Below, one piece after another: positions 351 through 35,844 of a stretch of DNA of 35,919 nt. Both the position numbers and the translations under genes were made by a program. Source of the stretch: a virus; the IMG/VR virus record IMGVR_UViG_3300042691_028410, positions 1 through 35,919 of that record; one strand, 5' to 3'. Within the stretch, counting starts at the first letter, position 1. Every line of letters begins with the position of its first letter. A model generated the notes under the pieces. The model was not told the origin of the DNA, did not search any database, and saw only the letters and a list, made by a program, of their open reading frames with translations.

Positions 351-360
351 TATATTTATT
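351..360 (+). promoter_or_regulatory. Putative late promoter element TATATTTATT
   Basis: TATATTTATT lies 13 bases before the ATG at 374. The same ten bases occur exactly at 943, 19315, 32036 and 35269, each time directly before a gene start. No -35 partner is visible. This resembles the single-element late promoters of T4-like phages (TATAAATA) in design, not in sequence. A promoter role is inferred from position and recurrence. Confidence 0.65.
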
Positions 361-373
361 ATTAAAAAAAATC

Positions 374-904
374 ATGAAAAAAACAATTAGACTTACGGAA
401 ACAGATTTAACAAAATTAATTAAAAGACTTATTAAGGAAGAGGACGAAAATTTATCAAATATAGGTGCTAACTCTACAAATATAACAACAAACAAAAAAC
501 AATCTTTTAATATTACCGGTAAAAAAATTAATATGACTGGAGGTGGAGGGATGCACCCTGAAATACTTTATAGGTTTAATAACTATAATGATAAGATTAA
601 AGAAATATCTAATGATGACGTAGTATTAGTTGAGTTTGAATTACCGTTCAAGGTAATACTAAATAAAAGTACCGGAACGGAAGACGGCATTTCAAATCTA
701 AATGTTAGCACAACAAACACATCAACAAAAATTAGTATGGAAATAACTAGAAAAAGGGCGGTTGTCAGTATTAGGGGAAGGGTTTTACCAAAATATGGTG
801 ATTTTGAATTAAACATCGCGTTTGAAAAATATAAAAAACCTGAAGACGTAACAATCAAAGAAAACGTTAGAAAAGTTTTAAATAGTCTATACTTTAAAAG
901 ATAA
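374..904 (+). CDS. Leader-tagged small protein, possible head-internal cargo
   Basis: A 176-residue protein of unknown function. Residues 1-22 (MKKTIRLTETDLTK...) match the leader of the proteins at 32060 and 35293 position by position, although the rest is unrelated. The leader is basic and amphipathic and contains L-T-E at 7-9 and I-K-E at 20-22, both fitting the [IL]-x-E rule of T4-type prohead proteases. After it comes an Asn/Thr/Lys-rich stretch (about 25-55), a GGGGM turn, and a beta-rich domain (about 75-160) that resembles nothing I recognise. It has its own late-type promoter and sits between a terminator and the baseplate genes. Virion packaging with removal of the leader is inference; the alternative is a conserved N-terminal interaction motif that is not cleaved. 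Confidence 0.85.
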   Translation: MKKTIRLTETDLTKLIKRLIKEEDENLSNIGANSTNITTNKKQSFNITGKKINMTGGGGMHPEILYRFNNYNDKIKEISNDDVVLVEFELPFKVILNKSTGTEDGISNLNVSTTNTSTKISMEITRKRAVVSIRGRVLPKYGDFELNIAFEKYKKPEDVTIKENVRKVLNSLYFKR

Positions 905-1424: not shown

Positions 1425-3263
1425 ATGGCAAACAGAAAAATATCATATACCGAAAGAGATTTTGAAGGGATAAGAAGAGAGTTAATAAACTACACCCAAC
1501 AGTACTATCCTGAATTAATACAGAACTTTAACGACGCGTCAGTTTTTTCAGTTTTGATGGACTTAAATGCTGCGGTGACCGACAACTTACATTTCCATAT
1601 AGATAGAAGTATTCAAGAAACTGTATTACAGTATGCACAACAAAGATCTTCTGTTTTTAACATTGCTAGAACATATGGACTCAAAATACCTGGCTTTAGA
1701 CCTTCAGTCACAATAGCCGACATATCTATAACTGTACCTGCCGCTGGCGATTCAGAAAATACCGCATATTTGGGGGTATTAAGAGCGGGATCCCAATTCG
1801 CAGGTGCCGGAACAATATTTGAAAATCTTTATGATATTGATTTTTCTTCAGATTACAACATTGAAGGATTTGTTAATAGAACTAAAATACCAACATTTGA
1901 TCAAAATAATAACATAGTAAATTATGTTATAACAAAAAGAGAAGTAATAGTTAACGGATCTACAAAAATTTTCAAAATAGTTGTAAATTCAAATAACGTA
2001 GTACCTTTTTATAGTTTTTTCCTACCTGAAAAAAACGTGTTAGGGGTTACTTCAATTATTCAAAAAGATGGAACTTCTTATCAAAACACACCAACATACT
2101 CCGAGTTTAACTCCTCTAATGGTAGATGGTATGAGGTTGATGCTTTGGTTGAAGATACTGTATTTATTGAAGACAACACAAAACCTGTTGATTCTGCGGG
2201 TGTTAAAGTTGGTAAATATATCAAAACCGACAATAGATTTATTACGGAATACACACCGGAAGGGTTTTTAAAAATACAATTTGGGGCTGGAACAACAACA
2301 CCAAATCAACAACTTCAACAGTTTACACAAACAGGTATTCCACTCAAATTACAAAATTATCAAAACAACATAGGGTTAGGTTTAACCGTTCAACCAAACA
2401 CAACGATTTTTGTTCAATATAGAGTTGGTGGTGGTTTAGTATCTAATATTGGGGTCGGTGCTATTACTCAAGTAGTAACCGCTGATTTTTATGTGAATGG
2501 TCCTTCTGATAGTATTAATAGGAGTGTTACACAATCTTTAAGTGTTAATAATATAACTGCAGCAATTGGGGGTTCAAACCAACCTTCAATAGAGGAAGTA
2601 AGAAACATGGTGACTTTTAATTTTGCGGCTCAAAAAAGAGCGGTAACCATTAATGATTATAAGTCATTGATAGATACAATGCCAGGAAAATTTGGAGCAC
2701 CTGCAAAAGTATCTATCACAGAATTAGATAATAAAATATTGATAAAAATACTATCTTATGATAATACTGGAGTTTTAACACAGACAGTCTCTAATAATCT
2801 AAAAACCAATTTGGCAACCTATCTATCAAAGTATAGAATGATAAATGATTATATATCAATAGAGGTTGCTAAAGTTATTGATTTAGAATTAGAATTTTTA
2901 GTAATATTGGACAACGCAGGATCACAATCTGAAGTAATAACACAAATAATAAATCAGGTTAGCACGTATATGAATCCAAATAATAGAGAACTTGGCCAAA
3001 ACCTAAACGTATCAGATTTAAGAAGGTTAGTTCAAGATATCGGAGGAGTTAACACGTTAGCAGAAATAAGGGTTTATAATAAAGTTGGGGGACAATACTC
3101 ATCATCTGAAACTTCTCAAAGATATGTTGACAATACAACAAAACAAATAGATTTAGTTGATGATACTGTTTTTGCAGAACCCGATCAAATTTATCAAATT
3201 AGATTCCCTAAAAAAGACATCAAAGTTAGGGTTAAAAACTTATCAACCGTAGACTTCATATAA
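1425..3263 (+). CDS. Baseplate wedge protein, gp6/baseplate J-like
   Basis: A 612-residue protein with the layout of T4 gp6 and P2 gpJ-type proteins, which join neighbouring wedges into the baseplate ring of contractile tails. The N-terminus (ISYTERDFEGIRRELINY, then NFNDASVFSVLMDLNAAVTDNLHFHIDR, residues about 5-66) is the usual helical start of this family: a short 'Y-x-x-R-D/F' segment, then a helix with a conserved D and an L-A-Y-like stretch. The middle is beta-rich, and residues about 385-480 (VRNMVTFNFAAQKRAVTINDYKSLI) carry the typical A-x-x-R-AVT-x-x-DY motif of baseplate J proteins. T4 gp6 is 660 residues, so the length fits. It follows gp25 by six bases, with an AATTATATATGG start context that is also seen at 31406. 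Confidence 0.92.
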   Translation: MANRKISYTERDFEGIRRELINYTQQYYPELIQNFNDASVFSVLMDLNAAVTDNLHFHIDRSIQETVLQYAQQRSSVFNIARTYGLKIPGFRPSVTIADISITVPAAGDSENTAYLGVLRAGSQFAGAGTIFENLYDIDFSSDYNIEGFVNRTKIPTFDQNNNIVNYVITKREVIVNGSTKIFKIVVNSNNVVPFYSFFLPEKNVLGVTSIIQKDGTSYQNTPTYSEFNSSNGRWYEVDALVEDTVFIEDNTKPVDSAGVKVGKYIKTDNRFITEYTPEGFLKIQFGAGTTTPNQQLQQFTQTGIPLKLQNYQNNIGLGLTVQPNTTIFVQYRVGGGLVSNIGVGAITQVVTADFYVNGPSDSINRSVTQSLSVNNITAAIGGSNQPSIEEVRNMVTFNFAAQKRAVTINDYKSLIDTMPGKFGAPAKVSITELDNKILIKILSYDNTGVLTQTVSNNLKTNLATYLSKYRMINDYISIEVAKVIDLELEFLVILDNAGSQSEVITQIINQVSTYMNPNNRELGQNLNVSDLRRLVQDIGGVNTLAEIRVYNKVGGQYSSSETSQRYVDNTTKQIDLVDDTVFAEPDQIYQIRFPKKDIKVRVKNLSTVDFI

Positions 3264-16200: not shown

Positions 16201-16266
16201 GATAATTTCACCAATAAACTTCTAAACCTTTATATAGGTTTGGACTTACAAATTAATTGCGGATAA
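13264..16266 (+). CDS. Baseplate protein with tail-protein-I-like core
   Basis: A 1000-residue protein. Residues about 340-480 resemble the P2 gpI/tail protein I family of baseplate components: a helix [25 protein letters not shown], then [13 protein letters not shown], and the characteristic [26 protein letters not shown]. This points to a wedge-arm role, linking J-like protein to fibres. Residues about 840-880 contain a Cys-rich turn (RRQRGCTFI...DCLPC...[10 protein letters not shown]). The last about 108 residues (893-1000) form a separate module with W...A-I...L...Y...L-x-V-x-x-x-x-C...L-x-I-x-C, which appears again in the next protein after its repeats. The start overlaps the preceding stop (TAATG). 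Length far exceeds gpI (about 180), so this is a large composite protein. Confidence 0.85.
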
Positions 16267-19022
16267 TGGCTTGTATTACTGGATTTACCACAGGTGGTTA
16301 TTATAGTTACACAGATTGTTGTGGAGTATTACAAGTAGGGTTTGCTGGTGGTTTAGACACGGTATGTGTTGATACCGCATTTTCTGCATCATCAATAGGT
16401 CTTATTTTAGATCCTGTTAGTGTATGTGTTCAAGATTGTAGCACGGGACCATTAAGTTATACTTTTTCAGTCACTGGTGTTTGTAACAATCCTACAGGTA
16501 GTGTTACATTTTCTTCATTTGGTGGAGTTGCTCCCTATACAATAGATAATATTACACCAACAGGAAGTGGATTAAGTGCACAAACAAGCTCAGGTCAAAT
16601 AACATTTACAGGATTAACTGGTGGAACATATGTTTTTAGAATAAATGATTCTTTAGGTTTACAAAATAATGAACTTTTTGTAAATGTTTTAATTTCTGAT
16701 TGTTTTAATGCAAACATAATTAACACTTCAGGTACTATTTGTGGTGATAATAATGGTAGTTTTGAAGTAAGCGGATCATCAATAAATGCACCATATACTA
16801 TACTTGTTTATAGTGGGGTTTCAGACTATGTTGGAAGTTATAATGCAATAACTTTCCCATACCAAATTAATGGATTACCACCATCAATTTATCATGCGGT
16901 TGTATATGATTATGGTTTAGCAACCGCAATTACAGAAAACGTAGTTATAAGTGCTAGTACAAACATTGATTATGGTTTTTGGGTGGTAGATGCTGGAACT
17001 TGCGTAATAAATACAGGTAAAGTTGCGGTTACAGGTGTCACAGGAACGGGACCTTATACATATTTGTGGTCTGATGGGCAAACAACACAGTTAGCTACAG
17101 GATTAACTGCGGGTAACTATTCAGTAACTGTTACTGATTTTTACGGTTGTCAAGTCACTAAACAAGCAACAGTTGGAATTGCACAACCACTTGGAGTACT
17201 TTCTATAAATCCGACACAACCTGATTGTTTTATTTCAAACGGTTCATTACAAATAACAATGTCGGGAGGTACTGGACCTTACTTTTATTCTGCAAATACA
17301 GGACAAGTTGGTTATACATTATCCAATACTTTCACAATTAATTCATTACCTGCGGGTAGCTATTCTATTTTAGTGAGAGATGCAAATTATTGTCCAATTA
17401 TTGTTAACACATCCTTGAATACTGTTGGAGGATTTAATGTAATTGGGAATACAATAACAAACTCAACATGTAATCAAAATAGCGGATCTATTACCACGAC
17501 AATTAGTGGATTAATTGGGTTTTATTTATATTCATTAACCGGACTCTCCAACAATCAGGTTTATACTTATTACACACAAAGCCAAAACGTTACGTTCCCT
17601 AACCTACCAAACGACACGTATGTTTTATCAATATCAGGAGAAAGTGCTGGTTGTGGTTATAGTGAAACTTTAGTAGTAAACTCAGTTGAAAAATTTAGTG
17701 TTGATGTTTCAGTAACAAACGCTACTTGTGAATTAAATAATGGTTTAATTACAGTAAATGTCGGAACAGGATACACTAATTGGGATTTAAATGGTCAATT
17801 AGATTATATTTTAACAGGAGTACCACCAATCATTGACACCACACTTAGCTCAATGACGTTCAGTAATTTAGCACCTGGTATATATACAATACAAGTAAGA
17901 GACGAAGAAGACTGTATTGTTTCAGATACTTTTACAATAGGAACAACACCACAATTAGATAGTGCAGTTTTTGTTAACAATTGTGTTTTTGGTAATGATG
18001 GTTCAGCAAGTGTTTCTATTTTTGATGGTACACCACCATTTACATACGATTGGTCAGATAATGTACCTCCTTTACAAACGGGAAGTACTGTAACTGGTTT
18101 ATCTGGAGGATCATATACTGTTACAGTTACTGACAATAGTGGATGTACAAATTATCTTTCTTTTGTTATTGATTGCACGTTTACTCAAGTAACAGGTTTT
18201 ACAAGATATAGTGTCTGTTCTGATAATAATTTTATTACAACATCAGGAACAAAAAGGGGGATTGTTGAAATGATATCTGAAGGGTTTTTAGATTTGACTT
18301 CAGGATATACAAATTGTTTTATAAATACTTACACCTTAGATTGTGATATAACATTAAATGGTAGTGCATTTACTCAAACGGTTACTGTTGAAAATGATGC
18401 TGGATGGCAACAAGCAATTGAAACCATTCTTTCATCAATACCTGAAGTTGGTGAATATAGTGTCAATTTAACAAATAATACGTTACAGATAAAATCAAAT
18501 TGTCAAAATGGTATTGACCCATTAGGTAATGCTGATTTTAGTTTATCTTTGAGTATAAATTACGATATTTCATGTCAGGATATTGCACCAACACCAACAC
18601 CAACTCCGAGTCCAACTCCGAGCCCAACTCCGAGCCCAACACCAACACCAACTCCGAGCCCAACACCTGGACCAACTCCAAGTCCAACACCAACTCCAAG
18701 CCCAACACCGGCACCTACCGCAGTTTATTATACTTGGTTATCCAACAATAATTATTATGCTTTAGGTGTACCACAAACTTGCCTAGACCCAATAGGGTCG
18801 TTGATATTATATACATCAACACCAACATTAAGTGCTGGTACAGTACTTTATACTAACCCTTCATTAACAACAACACTATCTCCATCGACCTCTTGTGGTG
18901 GTGCACCTGGCGCTTTGTGTCAAAAACCTATTAAATCTTCTAATCCTATAAGTTTTAGAAAAAAAGTAACAGTTGGTAGTGGTGGTGTAATACAAAATAA
19001 CCCTAGCCTTTCCAACTGTTAA
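16266..19022 (+). CDS. SprB-repeat tail fibre/adhesin
   Basis: A 918-residue protein built mainly of about seven SprB-type repeats of roughly 80-90 residues (about 55-640). The clearest copies are [18 protein letters not shown], then [16 protein letters not shown], and [13 protein letters not shown] with [14 protein letters not shown]. SprB repeats are typical of Bacteroidota gliding adhesins, so a host origin is likely. Residues about 640-770 match the C-terminal module of the previous protein. A Pro/Thr/Ser linker (775-818) leads to a terminal domain with YTW...[17 protein letters not shown], similar to the end of the 24865 protein. I choose ATG 16266 (TAATG coupling) over an upstream TTG at 16257. 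Probably a long receptor-binding fibre; many cysteines suggest disulphides or metal sites. Confidence 0.88.
18588..18719 (+). repeat. Short tandem repeat coding a Pro/Thr/Ser linker
   Basis: About 44 codons built from CCAACA, CCAACT and CCGAGC/CCAAGT units encode alternating Pro with Thr or Ser, broken by one Gly and one Ala. It separates the repeat stalk from the terminal domain of the fibre. Near-identical hexamers make it prone to length change by slippage and to recombination with the similar tracts around 25447-25962. Confidence 0.9.
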
Positions 19023-22784: not shown

Positions 22785-24020
22785 ATGAAAATATTCATTC
22801 AAATTGCATCATATAGAGACCCCGAGCTTTTACCAACAATCAAATCTTGTTTAGAAAATGCTAAATACCCCGAAAATTTAGTTTTTGGAATTGCAAGACA
22901 ATTTCATCCTGATGATAAGTTTGATGATCTATCTAAATACGAATCGGATAAAAGATTTAGAGTTTTAAATATACCACACCAAGAATCAAAAGGTGTTTGT
23001 TGGGCTCGTAATCAAGTACAACAACTTTATAAGGATGAAGAATATACCCTCCAAATAGATTCTCATATGAGATTTGAAAAAGATTGGGACGAGACACTAA
23101 TAGGTATGGTTAGACAATTACAAGATTTAGGTATACCAAAACCATTATTGACTGGTTATGTTTCTTCTTACGACCCAAATAATGAACCACACGGAAGAGT
23201 AAGAGTACCTTGGCGAATGGTATTTGATAAATTTATACCTGAAGGTGCCGTATTTTTCTTACCTGAAGCAATTCCCGATTGGCAAAATATTGACACACCA
23301 ATCCCATCGAGGTTTTATTCTGCTCACTTTTGTTTCACGTTAGGTCAATTTAGTAAAGAAGTCCAACATAATCCCGATTTTTATTTTCACGGAGAAGAAA
23401 TTTCAATAGCTGTTAGGGCGTTCACTCATGGGTATGATTTGTTTCACCCACATAGAGTTGTTATATGGCACGAATACACAAGAAACGGAAGAGTAAAACA
23501 ATGGGACGATGATAAAGAGTGGTACAAAAAAAATGAAAATGCCCACCAGTTAAATAGAAAATTATTCGGAATGGATGGTGAAAAACAAGAAGGACATATC
23601 GGAAAATATGGTTTAGGGAACGTTAGAACGTTAAGAGATTATGAAAAATATGCCGGATTATTGTTTGAAAAAAGATCAGCACAAGAATATACATTACAAA
23701 AAAAATATCCACCCAATCCTGAAATAAATGATGATAAAGAATGGTTAAAAAGTTTTTCATCAATGTTTGAACATGAAATAATTTTAGAAAAAAACAATTT
23801 TACAGAGGAAGATTATGATTTTTGGGCCATAATTTATCATGATGAAAATGGTCAAGAAATTTATAGAAAAGATGCTGATGAAACTGAAATTAAAACACTA
23901 CTTAAAAATGAAATAAAAATTAAAAGACAGTTTTTAACTTATAGAAAACCTAAATCATGGACTGTTTGGTCACACTCTAAATCTAAAGAGTGGTTAGAAA
24001 AACTTGAGGGAACAGTATGA
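22785..24020 (+). CDS. GlcNAc-transferase-like glycosyltransferase (GT60-type)
   Basis: A 411-residue protein whose first about 250 residues match the Pfam 'Glycosyltransferase (GlcNAc)' family: IFIQIASYRDPELLPTI at the start, RVLNIPHQESKGVCWARN, then QIDSHMRF with D92-S93-H94 in place of the usual DxD metal motif, and FHGEEISIAVRAFTHGYDLFHP (H202, E204, E205). Family members transfer GlcNAc from UDP-GlcNAc to protein hydroxyproline or to Thr/Ser in mucin-like stretches; other members are uncharacterised. A C-terminal extension of about 120 residues is Lys/Glu-rich with a Trp-rich end. There is no signal peptide, so it acts in the host cytoplasm. The gene sits between fibre genes with Pro-Thr linkers, which are plausible acceptors. 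The next gene overlaps in ATGA. Confidence 0.9.
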   Translation: MKIFIQIASYRDPELLPTIKSCLENAKYPENLVFGIARQFHPDDKFDDLSKYESDKRFRVLNIPHQESKGVCWARNQVQQLYKDEEYTLQIDSHMRFEKDWDETLIGMVRQLQDLGIPKPLLTGYVSSYDPNNEPHGRVRVPWRMVFDKFIPEGAVFFLPEAIPDWQNIDTPIPSRFYSAHFCFTLGQFSKEVQHNPDFYFHGEEISIAVRAFTHGYDLFHPHRVVIWHEYTRNGRVKQWDDDKEWYKKNENAHQLNRKLFGMDGEKQEGHIGKYGLGNVRTLRDYEKYAGLLFEKRSAQEYTLQKKYPPNPEINDDKEWLKSFSSMFEHEIILEKNNFTEEDYDFWAIIYHDENGQEIYRKDADETEIKTLLKNEIKIKRQFLTYRKPKSWTVWSHSKSKEWLEKLEGTV

Positions 24021-24864: not shown

Positions 24865-26496
24865 ATGGCTGATTTAAGATTTGAAGGTTGTTGTTATGAT
24901 GGTTATCAGTATGTTACTGATGACGCTGCTTGGATTGCAACGGGTGGAACGGCATCAACAGGAATTACTTATCATTTTTCGGGAGACCCCGTTGTACCTG
25001 ATGGGTGTTACACAATAGTTTCTGCATTTACTTCTGGATTTTCTGCAACCACATTTTCAATATTTGACGGAGTTTATACAATTCAAACGGACTGTTCCGA
25101 CACCTTATGTTTAACAGGAGATTGTTGTAGTAATTCTGTTTGTATTAATATACCAATATCAACATATTCGGGTTATAATGGGACTTATGTTGTTGCTGGA
25201 AATTATAATAGTTACCCATTTTGGACAGGAGGGACAACACCAGGTTATCTTTATTATAACTCAACAAAATGGTGTTTAACTTCAGGGTTAAGTGAAAGTT
25301 GCCTTTTTTATGGATCAAGCCCAACATCCGCAAATTGTCCTGATATTGATGAAACACTATATTATACCGGTTCGTGTTTTCCAACACCAACACCATACGA
25401 TCCTTGTTCGATATTAGATTTTGATATTGTTTTAGAGTGTGCATTTCCAACACCAACACCAACTGCAACACCTACACCCACACCTACAGTAACACCAACT
25501 CCCACACCTACACCGACAATAGATATTTGTTCAGGCTATACTGTAGGAGTTTCATTTTCAGCAATTACACCAACCCCAACCCCTACACCAACACCAACCC
25601 CTACACCAACAGTTTATCCTTATAATATTGTTTCAGGTGTGACATTTGTGATTGATAGTGGTAATTTTGTTTGTGTTAATGTAAATAAATTAGAAGATTG
25701 TAATAGTGATGACGTATATTACGTTAGTGGACCAATTATATATTCAGGATCACCAATTATAACAGGAACAACTATTTTAGGTTTAATAAATGACCAATAT
25801 AAGTGTTTGACATATACTGAAAATGTTTTTGGTAGTCCTGCCGATTATTTACAAGGAGTTTTAAGTGCAACAACAAGTGGATGTTCATATTGTTCAGTAC
25901 CGGCACCAACACCAACCCCTACACCAACACCGACACCTACCCCAACACCAACCGCAACACCTGTGATAACACCTACTTATGCACCAAACACGGTATTTGT
26001 ATTTACATCATGTACTGATAACTCAATGATTATTCAATATTCATATCCACCATACAATGTAAATGTTGGAGATATATTAAAAACCACATCAGGTGCATGT
26101 TATTCTTATGTTGGTGACTATTACCCATATACACCACCAGCAGGTTATATTTGGTCATATATTGAAACATTTACGGCAACAACCGCAACAACATATACAA
26201 ATTGTGTGAATTGTTTAATACCAACACCACAACCAACATTATCTTATAGTGTTTGGAGAGCAAGAGGTGAGTTTTCACTTTCTTGTCCTGTATGTGAATT
26301 AACAAATGGTGGATCGGTAATAACATTCTATACCTCATCTTCAGATTCTGTAATACAAACAGGTGTATATATTTATGAAGATCAAACATTAACAACACCT
26401 GTTATTGTTGACTACATAAAATATGGTACTAAGATATATAGTGTAGATGTTGATGGAAAATTAACTGAAATATGTAACGTAAACGGAAATTGTTAA
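24865..26496 (+). CDS. Multi-domain tail fibre with three Pro-Thr linkers
   Basis: A 543-residue protein, a string of small Cys-containing beta domains joined by Pro-Thr tracts at residues about 195-218, 235-249 and 346-366. The N-terminus (FEGCCYDGYQYV) resembles that of the SprB fibre (YYSYTDCCG), suggesting a common attachment end. Residues about 105-165 contain NYNSYPFWTGG...YLYYNSTKWCLTSG, a pattern repeated in the 26735 protein. The final domain (about 455-543: YSVWRARGEFSLSCPVC...ITFYTSSSD) matches the end of the SprB fibre after its own linker, so tip domains seem to be shuffled. Cysteines are numerous. I take it to be a receptor-binding fibre or decoration; the linkers are possible targets of the neighbouring glycosyltransferases. 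No enzymatic motif. Confidence 0.85.
   Translation: MADLRFEGCCYDGYQYVTDDAAWIATGGTASTGITYHFSGDPVVPDGCYTIVSAFTSGFSATTFSIFDGVYTIQTDCSDTLCLTGDCCSNSVCINIPISTYSGYNGTYVVAGNYNSYPFWTGGTTPGYLYYNSTKWCLTSGLSESCLFYGSSPTSANCPDIDETLYYTGSCFPTPTPYDPCSILDFDIVLECAFPTPTPTATPTPTPTVTPTPTPTPTIDICSGYTVGVSFSAITPTPTPTPTPTPTPTVYPYNIVSGVTFVIDSGNFVCVNVNKLEDCNSDDVYYVSGPIIYSGSPIITGTTILGLINDQYKCLTYTENVFGSPADYLQGVLSATTSGCSYCSVPAPTPTPTPTPTPTPTPTATPVITPTYAPNTVFVFTSCTDNSMIIQYSYPPYNVNVGDILKTTSGACYSYVGDYYPYTPPAGYIWSYIETFTATTATTYTNCVNCLIPTPQPTLSYSVWRARGEFSLSCPVCELTNGGSVITFYTSSSDSVIQTGVYIYEDQTLTTPVIVDYIKYGTKIYSVDVDGKLTEICNVNGNC
25447..25518 (+). repeat. Tandem Pro-Thr codon tract 1
   Basis: About 24 codons alternate CCA/CCT/CCC/CCG with ACA/ACT, with one Ala and one Val interruption. 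It links two small Cys-bearing domains of the fibre. The hexameric unit is shared with the tracts at 18588, 25567 and 25900. Confidence 0.88.
25567..25611 (+). repeat. Tandem Pro-Thr codon tract 2
   Basis: About 15 codons of alternating Thr and Pro separate a short domain (DICSGYTVGVSFSAI) from the next folded segment of the same fibre. Codon use for Pro and Thr is mixed, so the DNA is not a perfect microsatellite. Confidence 0.88.
25900..25962 (+). repeat. Tandem Pro-Thr codon tract 3
   Basis: About 21 codons of Pro-Thr with two Ala interruptions precede the C-terminal half of the fibre. It is the longest uninterrupted stretch in this gene (PTPTPTPTPTPTPTPT) and the strongest candidate for a mucin-like acceptor. 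Confidence 0.88.
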
Positions 26497-31405: not shown

Positions 31406-32011
31406 ATGGAAGAAAAAAGAGATTTAAAGAACACACCTAAAGTTCTTGGACTTGACATATCCACCAAAACGATTGGTTGGAGTCTTTTTGACATAAAAAC
31501 TCAAGAATTATTGGAACTTACTCATTTTTCTCCGGTGATAAAACCAAAACCCGAAGATAAAATTGAAGAATTACTATTAAAAGTGGTCGCGTTTGAAGAA
31601 AAACTAATCAACTATAAAAATTTAGGAATTACTAAAGTTGTTATTGAAGAACCATTACTTAACTCAAATAATGTTTGGACGGTAGGTACGTTACTAAGAT
31701 ACAATTCTATGATTACAAAATCAATTTATGACATTTTAGGAATAATACCATCATACATTTCAACCTATAATTCTAGAAAATTTGCATGGCCTGATTTTGT
31801 TCAACAAAATGATAAAGGTAAACATGTGTTATTTGGTGGATTACCAAAAGATGTAGATAAAAAAGAATTAATTTGGAAAAAAGTTTCCGATAAAGAACCA
31901 CAAATAACATGGCACTATACAAAAAATAATACATTGAAAAAGGAGTGTTATGATATGGCCGATTCTTATACTTGTGTTTTAGGTTATATGAAACAAGAAA
32001 ACATTTGGTAA
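31406..32011 (+). CDS. RuvC-like Holliday junction resolvase/nuclease
   Basis: A 201-residue protein with an RNase H-like RuvC fold. Catalytic acidic residues are visible in the expected order: D17 in VLGLDISTKTIGWSLFD, E81/E82 in VVIEEPLL and D183/D186 in YDMADSYTCVLG. These would bind the two metal ions that cut branched DNA. RuvC itself is about 170 residues, so the length is normal. In phages such enzymes clear branched replication intermediates before packaging, the job of endonuclease VII in T4. Placement at the end of the structural operon, with an AATTATATATGG start context like the gp6 gene, fits late expression and a packaging role. Confidence 0.88.
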   Translation: MEEKRDLKNTPKVLGLDISTKTIGWSLFDIKTQELLELTHFSPVIKPKPEDKIEELLLKVVAFEEKLINYKNLGITKVVIEEPLLNSNNVWTVGTLLRYNSMITKSIYDILGIIPSYISTYNSRKFAWPDFVQQNDKGKHVLFGGLPKDVDKKELIWKKVSDKEPQITWHYTKNNTLKKECYDMADSYTCVLGYMKQENIW

Positions 32012-32035: not shown

Positions 32036-32045
32036 TATATTTATT
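32036..32045 (+). promoter_or_regulatory. Putative late promoter element of the second leader gene
   Basis: An exact TATATTTATT, extended to TATATTTATTAATAAAA and shared with the element at 35269, lies 14 bases before the ATG at 32060. A run of nine T (32018-32026) lies just upstream, as it does at the other two leader genes. Confidence 0.65.
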
Positions 32046-32059
32046 AATAAAATAAAATT

Positions 32060-32431
32060 ATGAAAAGAATTATTAGATTAACAGAATCAGATCTTACAAG
32101 AATTGTTAGAAGAGTGATAAGTGAACAAAAATTAACACCTAGATCTGACATGGCTGGAAAACCATTTAAATTAAATGGTAAAATGTGTAAAGTTGAAAAG
32201 GCGTTACAAATACCAAACGGTAGGGGTATTTTGATATTACCTGATGCTGCTAGTGGTTGTAGAAAAAATAACGGTGTTGTTGGTGGTGAAAAAGGGTATA
32301 TTTATTTAGGTAGTGGTACTTCAGTTATGAGTATGTTTGAATGGGATACAATAAAAAATAATTGGAAAGATCTTGGAGGAGGAGAATTATCAGAACCTAG
32401 AAACCCATTAGGTAGTATACAATTTATGTAA
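32060..32431 (+). CDS. Leader-tagged small protein, possible head-internal cargo
   Basis: A 123-residue protein. Residues 1-22 (MKRIIRLTESDLTR...) are the same leader as in the genes at 374 and 35293, with L-T-E at 7-9 and I-S-E at 20-22 as candidate prohead-protease sites. The mature part would begin at Q23 and is small, basic and Gly-rich: LNGKMCKVEKALQIPNGRGILILPDAASGC, then GVVGGEKGYIYLGSGTSVMSMFEWD. This looks like a compact beta-barrel or SH3-like fold, though I recognise no family. Own promoter and own terminator make it a self-contained unit between the late genes and the replication operon. Delivery into the host with the DNA is inference. Confidence 0.85.
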   Translation: MKRIIRLTESDLTRIVRRVISEQKLTPRSDMAGKPFKLNGKMCKVEKALQIPNGRGILILPDAASGCRKNNGVVGGEKGYIYLGSGTSVMSMFEWDTIKNNWKDLGGGELSEPRNPLGSIQFM

Positions 32432-32557: not shown

Positions 32558-33478
32558 ATGAAAGAAGAGTCACTATTAGTTGACCTTATTGAGAATATTT
32601 TTGGTGAACCTAAAAACGTAAATGAATATAGTGGTCAAATATCAGTTGACTGTCCCGTTTGTTCCTATGAAATAAAAGGTTTATCAAAAACCGATGGTAA
32701 GGGAAATTTAGAAATAAATTATATTAATCATGTTTATAAATGTTGGGCGTGTTCTGAAACACATGACACTCATGGACATTTAGGTAGATTAATTGAACAA
32801 TTTGGATCAAAAAAAGATAAAAAAACATATAACCTCATCAGACCTGATAAGGTAGAAAAAAAACAAAAAGAATATAAAAAATTAGAACTACCAAAGGAGT
32901 ACAAAAGATTTGAAGAAATCCATCCATTACATTTACCAAGAAAAGAAGCTTGGAACTATCTTAAAAAAAGAGGAATAACACAAGAAACAATAGATAAATA
33001 TAAAATCGGTCTTTGTGTTGAAGGTGAATACGCTGGTCGCATCATAGTTCCATCATTTAATAAAAAAGGAGAATTAAACTTTTTTGTTTCAAGATCATGG
33101 AACCCAAGAGCAAAACTTAAATACAAAAACCCTGAAGCTGCTAAGGACTTTCTTATTTTTAATGAAAGTTTGATTGATTGGAAAAAAGACATTTATTTAG
33201 TTGAAGGAGTGTTTGATTCATTCTTTTTGGATAACTCAATTGCACTACTTGGAAAGTATGTGAATGATAACTTATGGGAAAAATTATACGAGAAGGCAAA
33301 AAAAGATATAATAGTTTGTTTGGATGGTGACGCATTTAATGATGCTAAAAACATATATGACAAACTTAATGGAGGTACCTTATATGGTAGAGTTAAATTA
33401 ATGAAACTACCAAAAGATAAAGACGTTTGTGATCTTAGAGGTCAAATAAACGAATATATGATACAAGAAAAAGAATGA
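32558..33478 (+). CDS. DNA primase (zinc finger plus TOPRIM)
   Basis: A 306-residue primase of the DnaG superfamily. The zinc-binding module is at residues 32-65: C32-P-V-C35 and C62-W-A-C65. The TOPRIM catalytic part has E216 in IYLVEGVFD and D256-x-D258 in IVCLDGDA, the metal-binding residues of the family, followed by a Lys-rich stretch. Between them, GITQETIDKYKIGLCVEGEYAGRIIVPSFNKKGELNFFVSRSW is the usual primase core link. There is no helicase domain, so it resembles T4 gp61-type stand-alone primases and would need a separate helicase. It makes RNA primers on the lagging strand. It is the first gene after a host-type promoter and overlaps the nuclease gene by four bases. Confidence 0.9.
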   Translation: MKEESLLVDLIENIFGEPKNVNEYSGQISVDCPVCSYEIKGLSKTDGKGNLEINYINHVYKCWACSETHDTHGHLGRLIEQFGSKKDKKTYNLIRPDKVEKKQKEYKKLELPKEYKRFEEIHPLHLPRKEAWNYLKKRGITQETIDKYKIGLCVEGEYAGRIIVPSFNKKGELNFFVSRSWNPRAKLKYKNPEAAKDFLIFNESLIDWKKDIYLVEGVFDSFFLDNSIALLGKYVNDNLWEKLYEKAKKDIIVCLDGDAFNDAKNIYDKLNGGTLYGRVKLMKLPKDKDVCDLRGQINEYMIQEKE

Positions 33479-35268: not shown

Positions 35269-35278
35269 TATATTTATT
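35269..35278 (+). promoter_or_regulatory. Putative late promoter element of the third leader gene
   Basis: An exact TATATTTATT, extended to TATATTTATTAATAAAA as at 32036, lies 14 bases before the ATG at 35293. A ten-T run (35253-35262) precedes it, as at the other two leader genes. Confidence 0.65.
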
Positions 35279-35292
35279 AATAAAAATATATT

Positions 35293-35844
35293 ATGAAAAG
35301 AATTATAAGTTTAACTGAATCGGATCTTACAAGAATCGTAATACGAGTTTTAAAAGAACAAGAAAAAATGCCAATATTACAACCACAAGAAATACCAAAC
35401 AACATACCCTACACCATTTCAAATGAAGTTGATGAGTTAAGGTTAAAAAGAGAAGAGTTAATGCGGGAATTTGAAAAATTGAATAAAAAAAGTGGTGGAA
35501 TGATGGGTAGAGTAAAAAACAAAATTGGTGATTTAGAAGATAGTGTAATTGAAGAAATTAATAGTATAAAAACTAATATTGAAATGAAGTTAGATGATAT
35601 AAAAAGAACATTAGTATTAATACGAATGAAATCACAACAAAAAAAACAAGATAGAAGACAGGAAAGAGAAATTAAAATTTTAGAAAGAGACATTGAAAAA
35701 TATGAAAAAAGTATTAATCAAATAAAAAATAAAAAAATTGTAACATCAAATGATTTAAAAGACATTATAGCTGTAGTGAACGGTGTATTAATGTGGACGA
35801 CTGCGGCGATAGGTGTAATTATAAACCGTAAGATGAATAACTAA
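35293..35844 (+). CDS. Leader-tagged coiled-coil protein with C-terminal hydrophobic segment
   Basis: A 183-residue protein. Residues 1-22 (MKRIISLTESDLTR...) are the common leader with L-T-E at 7-9 and L-K-E at 20-22. Residues about 45-150 are a highly charged helical region with heptad-like spacing (EVDELRLKREELMREFEKL; later ILERDIEKYEKSINQI), a probable coiled coil. Residues about 158-178 (IIAVVNGVLMWTTAAIGVII) form one hydrophobic helix long enough to cross a membrane, followed by a short basic tail. If the leader targets the head, this protein might act at the host membrane after injection. Otherwise a holin- or spanin-like role is possible, though no lysis gene is nearby. It has its own promoter and terminator. 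Confidence 0.85.
   Translation: MKRIISLTESDLTRIVIRVLKEQEKMPILQPQEIPNNIPYTISNEVDELRLKREELMREFEKLNKKSGGMMGRVKNKIGDLEDSVIEEINSIKTNIEMKLDDIKRTLVLIRMKSQQKKQDRRQEREIKILERDIEKYEKSINQIKNKKIVTSNDLKDIIAVVNGVLMWTTAAIGVIINRKMNN

Follow-up and report, generated by a model that had tools for sequence, protein, structure and literature searches.

Why three proteins that diverge immediately afterwards should begin with the same 22 residues is the question raised by the genes starting at positions 374, 32060 and 35293 of the window, which is the whole 35.9-kb IMG/VR fragment (35,919 nucleotides) analysed here. The three genes lie on the + strand, start with ATG and encode proteins of 176, 123 and 183 aa, respectively, and their leaders, encoded at 374..439 (MKKTIRLTETDLTKLIKRLIKE), 32060..32125 (MKRIIRLTESDLTRIVRRVISE) and 35293..35358 (MKRIISLTESDLTRIVIRVLKE), align without gaps. 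With the leader of the gene at 32060 as query, the window gave matches at these three starts and nowhere else, with E-values of 6.7e-11, 9.2e-8 and 2.3e-6, and chance was excluded as the source of the copies on the strength of these values. Thus, the shared gapless leader described in the original prediction is real, and the leader search finds all three copies. The homology past residue 22 that this prediction had named as the sign of a simple duplication was looked for by blastp and by profile-profile comparison and was absent, with nothing detectable after residue 22–23; the best blastp match between the proteins past the leader covered 11 residues (E 0.96), and when the three payload families were compared profile to profile, the probabilities were just 0.1–0.7%.

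The window contains a gp25-like (957-1418, + strand) and a gp6-like (1425-3263, + strand) baseplate wedge gene, which together place it among T4-like giant phages, as well as genes for a RuvC-like resolvase (31406..32011, + strand), a DNA primase (32558..33478, + strand) and an exonuclease. By identity of the gp6-like protein, its relatives are G001 (112 kb, 99%), G002 (281 kb, 81%) and G003 (214 kb, 75%), and G002 has the same gene order as the window. Apart from the leader genes, a 77-aa ORF at 103-336 with a cysteine cluster (CCGNGCLHCPYEP) had no PHROGs match, and a gene with a similar start occupies the same place in G002 (159329). Two large proteins (16257-19022 and 24865-26496) carry long PTPTP(S) repeat tracts and lie near glycosyltransferase-like genes at 22785, 24017 and 28357, judged by eye only, in what may be a tail-fibre or surface-modification region.

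The characters given earlier for the three payloads were broadly right. Payload 1 (440..904, + strand) is predicted, with low confidence, to be all-beta and has no family match; payload 2 (32126..32431, + strand) is a small orphan located between the RuvC and primase genes; and payload 3 (35359..35844, + strand) has a charged, coiled-coil-like sequence and a hydrophobic stretch at its C-terminus. None of them matched PHROGs or Pfam. Payloads 1 and 2 were modelled by AlphaFold with mean pLDDT of 59 and 52, the leader being predicted as a helix at low confidence, and when the first of these models was searched against the PDB all superpositions were poor (top TM about 0.3, rmsd about 13), from which no fold is claimed. 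Homologues of the window payloads found elsewhere also bear the leader: it is kept in all homologues of payload 1, namely L009 (88%) and L015/L016 (about 30%), and it is present in L392 (75%), the one relative of payload 3.

The distribution of the leader was then determined. G001, G002 and G003 have 4, 9 and 11 copies, respectively. Across 14 leader-bearing phage records, mostly of 154–335 kb, every record had between 4 and 17 copies at E ≤ 0.01, which bears out the genome-wide family anticipated from the window. A profile scan of IMG/VR gave at least 445 confirmed leader stretches on hundreds of contigs. Among 84,980 bacterial and archaeal species genomes, there were eight weak matches, mostly in Bacteroidota assemblies and one in an alphaproteobacterial assembly; contigs of the latter (DFKH01 contigs L239, L240 and L242; L254) encode leader proteins together with an S77 protease and are probably misbinned giant-phage contigs. 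No match was obtained in 50,697 sequenced phage records (INPHARED), T4-like ones included, and a T4 capsid-targeting sequence (CTS) of the same length, used as positive control, found 533 of the same records, many at 60–80% identity. The huge-phage record LR745206 had no match either, and no paper on the motif was found in a literature search.

The 254 unique leader proteins of the loci read fell into 171 payload families, 128 of them singletons, when compared with one another by blastp (E<1e-3) past residue 24. The few Pfam matches in 110 sampled leader proteins were to NUDIX, PG-binding plus YkuD, and alpha/beta hydrolase domains. One duplicated gene with divergent tails, whose slowest-changing part is the leader, would be in keeping with the neighbouring tandem copies at some loci (L163, L187); it is scarcely credible given enzymes of different folds behind one leader, the number of payload families at this threshold, and window payloads that share no profile-profile similarity. 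The leader proteins are a probably virion-packaged and almost entirely uncharacterised set.

The exchange of payloads was clearest in the variable slot flanked on the left by the RuvC-like gene and on the right by the primase gene. In relatives with flanks 80–98% identical, the leader was always there and the payloads belonged to at least six unrelated families. This finding of unrelated payloads in one conserved slot, together with the diversity of families, supports the earlier proposal of a targeting signal carried by many payloads. The same replacement of payloads between conserved flanks, with promoter and leader kept, is what would be seen if promoter and leader codons together acted at the DNA level, as an arm for recombination or homing by which payload genes are moved, the peptide itself having no role. 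The codons speak to this point. Thr8 is encoded by ACA, ACT, ACC and ACG in 79, 33, 19 and 16 cases, respectively, and in general the synonymous codons of the leader vary as freely as in the payloads while the residues are invariant; therefore, selection acts on the protein and not on the DNA. A role in recombination could coexist with this but leaves the protein conservation unexplained, and a purely DNA-level cassette was considered highly improbable.

The end of the leader was examined in 120 non-redundant leaders aligned on residues 7–12 with no restriction downstream. In this set, which was partly picked by similarity over 22–23 residues, Glu22 was present in 120/120 and I, L or V occupied position 20 (P3) in 120/120, the leader residue that varied most was at position 21 (P2; 2.5 bits), Q, N or S was usual at position 23, and the entropy was at background, about 4 bits, from position 26 on. 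An independent DNA-pattern scan that required only residues 1–12 recovered Glu22 in 95 of 101 leaders, and in five of the six exceptions (LTESDLH/LTESDLR forms) the [I/L]xE was shifted by four residues, i.e., one helical turn. The T4 prohead protease gp21 cleaves after Glu (PMC5694885). The comparable T4 sites are MKTYQEFIAE↓A in IPII and IPIII, ITE↓A in IPI and LTE↓A in gp23, where the arrow marks the cut. T4 gp21 prefers I or L at the first position of (I/L)xE. The drop in conservation after Glu22, with the pattern [I/L/V]-x-E↓Q/N/S, is by its sequence the cleavage motif of a T4-type prohead protease. The predicted cuts in the window fall after E22 in LIKE↓E (codon 437-439), VISE↓Q (32123-32125) and VLKE↓Q (35356-35358).

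An amphipathic basic segment in front of diverse payloads would also suit an uncleaved docking helix, which ties the payloads to a phage structure such as a replication factory, the membrane, the tail or the scaffold and is never removed. The invariant Glu, the free P2 and the immediate loss of conservation are, however, expected of a cut site and not of a retained helix. At L368:463-1299 (+ strand), moreover, two neighbouring slot payload genes have been fused in frame, and decay of the second leader has spared little but its RRFINE↓QG site, a single case that points the same way, and a retained helix is considered unlikely. An export or membrane signal peptide would likewise be N-terminal and basic. 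By inspection only, the segment has neither a hydrophobic core nor a signal-peptidase motif; basic and hydrophobic residues alternate, the spacing of the hydrophobic ones is that of a single face of a helix, and the net charge is about +3, so that the chance of such a peptide is practically negligible. A prohead-protease-type site at the end of the leader suggests instead that the proteins are bound for the phage head and that the leader is removed.

The window and G001, both fragments, lack the head genes, and the leader is linked to a protease through G002 and other leader-bearing phages. In G002, the genes of an S77 protease (69583-70293), an acidic scaffold-like protein (70666-72153) and a gp23-like capsid protein follow one another in T4 order, and the core protein is encoded at 67754-68482. 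Among 24 S77 proteases, the LNHP and SSRG motifs of T4 gp21 are kept, with NHP in all, and nearly all have [I/L]xE followed by S, N or A close to the N-terminus, near residue 30. In most records, [I/L]xE↓[S/N] occurs four to seven times in the core protein encoded beside the protease. Every major capsid protein that was read with its propeptide region has [H/F]LINE↓A; its equivalence to LTE↓A of T4 gp23 rests on spacing, T4 gp23 being unaligned through the site. The P1' residue is mostly Q in the leaders versus S, N or A in the protease, core and capsid sites. The motif [I/L]xE[SANQE] was found at residues 10–30 of 65 proteins in G002 and 57 in G003, compared with 24.5 ± 4 and 18.3 ± 3.5, respectively, expected from internal windows; the corresponding values for T4 were 24 and 13.8 ± 3.2.

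An S77 protease was detected in 9/12 and 11/14 leader-bearing viral records, and gp23 scored over the cut-off in 12/14. The co-occurrence of leader and S77 protease, counted within leader-bearing records, is a matter of consistency rather than proof. The records missing S77 or gp23 include fragments and G015 (274 kb), where neither was found. Since the leader genes are equally spaced in G014 and G015, the latter seems to be the same genome in a shorter assembly, apparently without the head region. The S77 protease of the 335-kb phage G037 (IMGVR_UViG_3300028888_000045; L385:874-2025, + strand) carries an intein-like insertion directly before the catalytic NHP motif, which matched Pfam Intein_splicing at 3.9e-6 (below the curated cut-off) and Hint_2 at 0.005, with T4-like protease halves on either side.

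The regions upstream of the leader genes contain a common element. It lies at 353..367 for the gene at 374 (TATTTATTATTAAAA, TATTTAT beginning 21 nt before the ATG) and at 32038..32052 and 35271..35285 for the genes at 32060 and 35293 (TATTTATTAATAAAA in both, 22 nt before the ATG), all on the + strand. TATTTAT about 22 nt upstream was found for 83 of 162 leader genes as compared with 92 of 709 other ORFs of the same loci (p = 6e-24), and about half of the leader genes are without the TATTTAT...TAAAA element. In G002, the element also precedes the protease, the core protein and several tail and baseplate genes, and we infer that it is a candidate phage late promoter. The T4-style late promoter TATAAATA, tried on the sense strand, was weakly represented (4/23 vs 9/545), and the enriched element was TATTTAT...TAAAA; TATTTATA is the reverse complement of this T4 late core.

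Other N-terminal types ending at [I/L]xE were seen by eye in G002 and G003 (L113-L138). They include MKIIITESQYKxLxE, MKQLIKQILKEE, LxNEINRxKxLM...ISEQ and xSEEEKNxIRxxYGxxxE, so that MKIIITESQY-, ILKEE-, NEINRIK- and SEEEKNxIRxxYG-like types stand beside LTESDL in these phages, and they may be more capsid-targeting leaders. The promoter element was present in only 2 of 22 leader-like MKIIITESQY proteins.

Five lines of observation are presented here, namely one leader on many payloads, the conservation cliff at the motif, a protease with matching substrates in relatives, the shared promoter context and the exchange of payloads in a slot. The leader is, on what these sequences tell, very probably a removable capsid-targeting sequence, by which payloads would be loaded into the head, freed by the prohead protease and ejected into the host. 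Points against this reading are the different P1' residues, the lack of sequence similarity to the T4 CTS, and the absence of the promoter element from about half of the leader genes and from most of the MKIIITESQY type. The leader proteins would be expressed late from a promoter common to the head genes. In the leader, a short hydrophobic strand would lead into an amphipathic basic helix, with L12, I15, V16, V19 and I20 on one face and R/K on the other, and the leader would dock the protein onto the assembling prohead core. At shell closure, the gp21-like S77 protease would cut after Glu22 at [I/L/V]-x-E↓, possibly with a second cut at an internal LTE9↓S; sites of this kind would also be where it processes the major capsid protein, the core protein and itself. 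Once released, the payloads would stay in the head with the DNA and enter the next host, most plausibly as factors of early host takeover or anti-defence. By analogy with T4 IPI-III (PMC12373910, PMC3012670), anti-defence would be their most plausible general role.

The T4 CTS has 10–19 residues, is enough to package foreign proteins and is cut by gp21 (PMC9026906). IPI, IPII, IPIII and Alt of T4 have a short N-terminal leader on unrelated mature parts (PMC9026906, PMC3012670, PMC12373910), like the proteins described here, and IP1-3 inhibit different GmrSD restriction enzymes (PMC12373910, PMC3012670). Further likenesses to the T4 CTS proteins are the (I/L)xE gp21-type leader end, with an S77 protease and a gp23-like capsid protein in the relatives, and, as for the T4 IP genes, hypervariability in place. 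Unlike the T4 CTS, the present leader has 22 residues of unrelated sequence and a different promoter. The number of copies also differs, being 4–17 per large record, with the 171 payload families sampled, against three IPs plus Alt in T4. The best reading is that the leader falls outside the T4 CTS family by sequence but would work as a T4 CTS does. The ip genes of T-even phages were themselves identified by their leader (PMC12373910). The polymorphism of the T-even ip locus was reported by Repoila et al. 1994 (cited in PMC12373910 and PMC3012670), and as that work is described in these two papers, injected-protein genes are swapped there behind a constant leader, as in our slot, whereas here many loci per genome are involved. 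The giant phages phiKZ and SPN3US similarly have head proteins cut after Glu by a prohead protease and head-packaged, ejected proteins (PMC5694885); the SPN3US propeptides, however, are mostly >100 residues long with A/SxE sites and occur on few proteins, as against 22 residues, [I/L/V]xE and many small orphans here.

There is roughly an even chance that these T4-like giant phages, all of them uncultured, have a general programme of protein delivery, in which dozens of exchangeable payloads per virion and several leader types would depend on one protease site. The leader suggests a second, independent packaging tag, used far more widely than that of T4 IPI-III and Alt and by phages without a relative among the sequenced phage records searched. 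One leader recognisable from sequence would turn orphan genes into a class of proteins that are packaged, cut after residue 22 and ejected, and would provide a means of predicting which proteins in metagenomes are injected. If the delivery programme is real, the leader alone would index injected host-takeover and anti-defence proteins by the thousand in metagenomic data, most of them uncharacterised.
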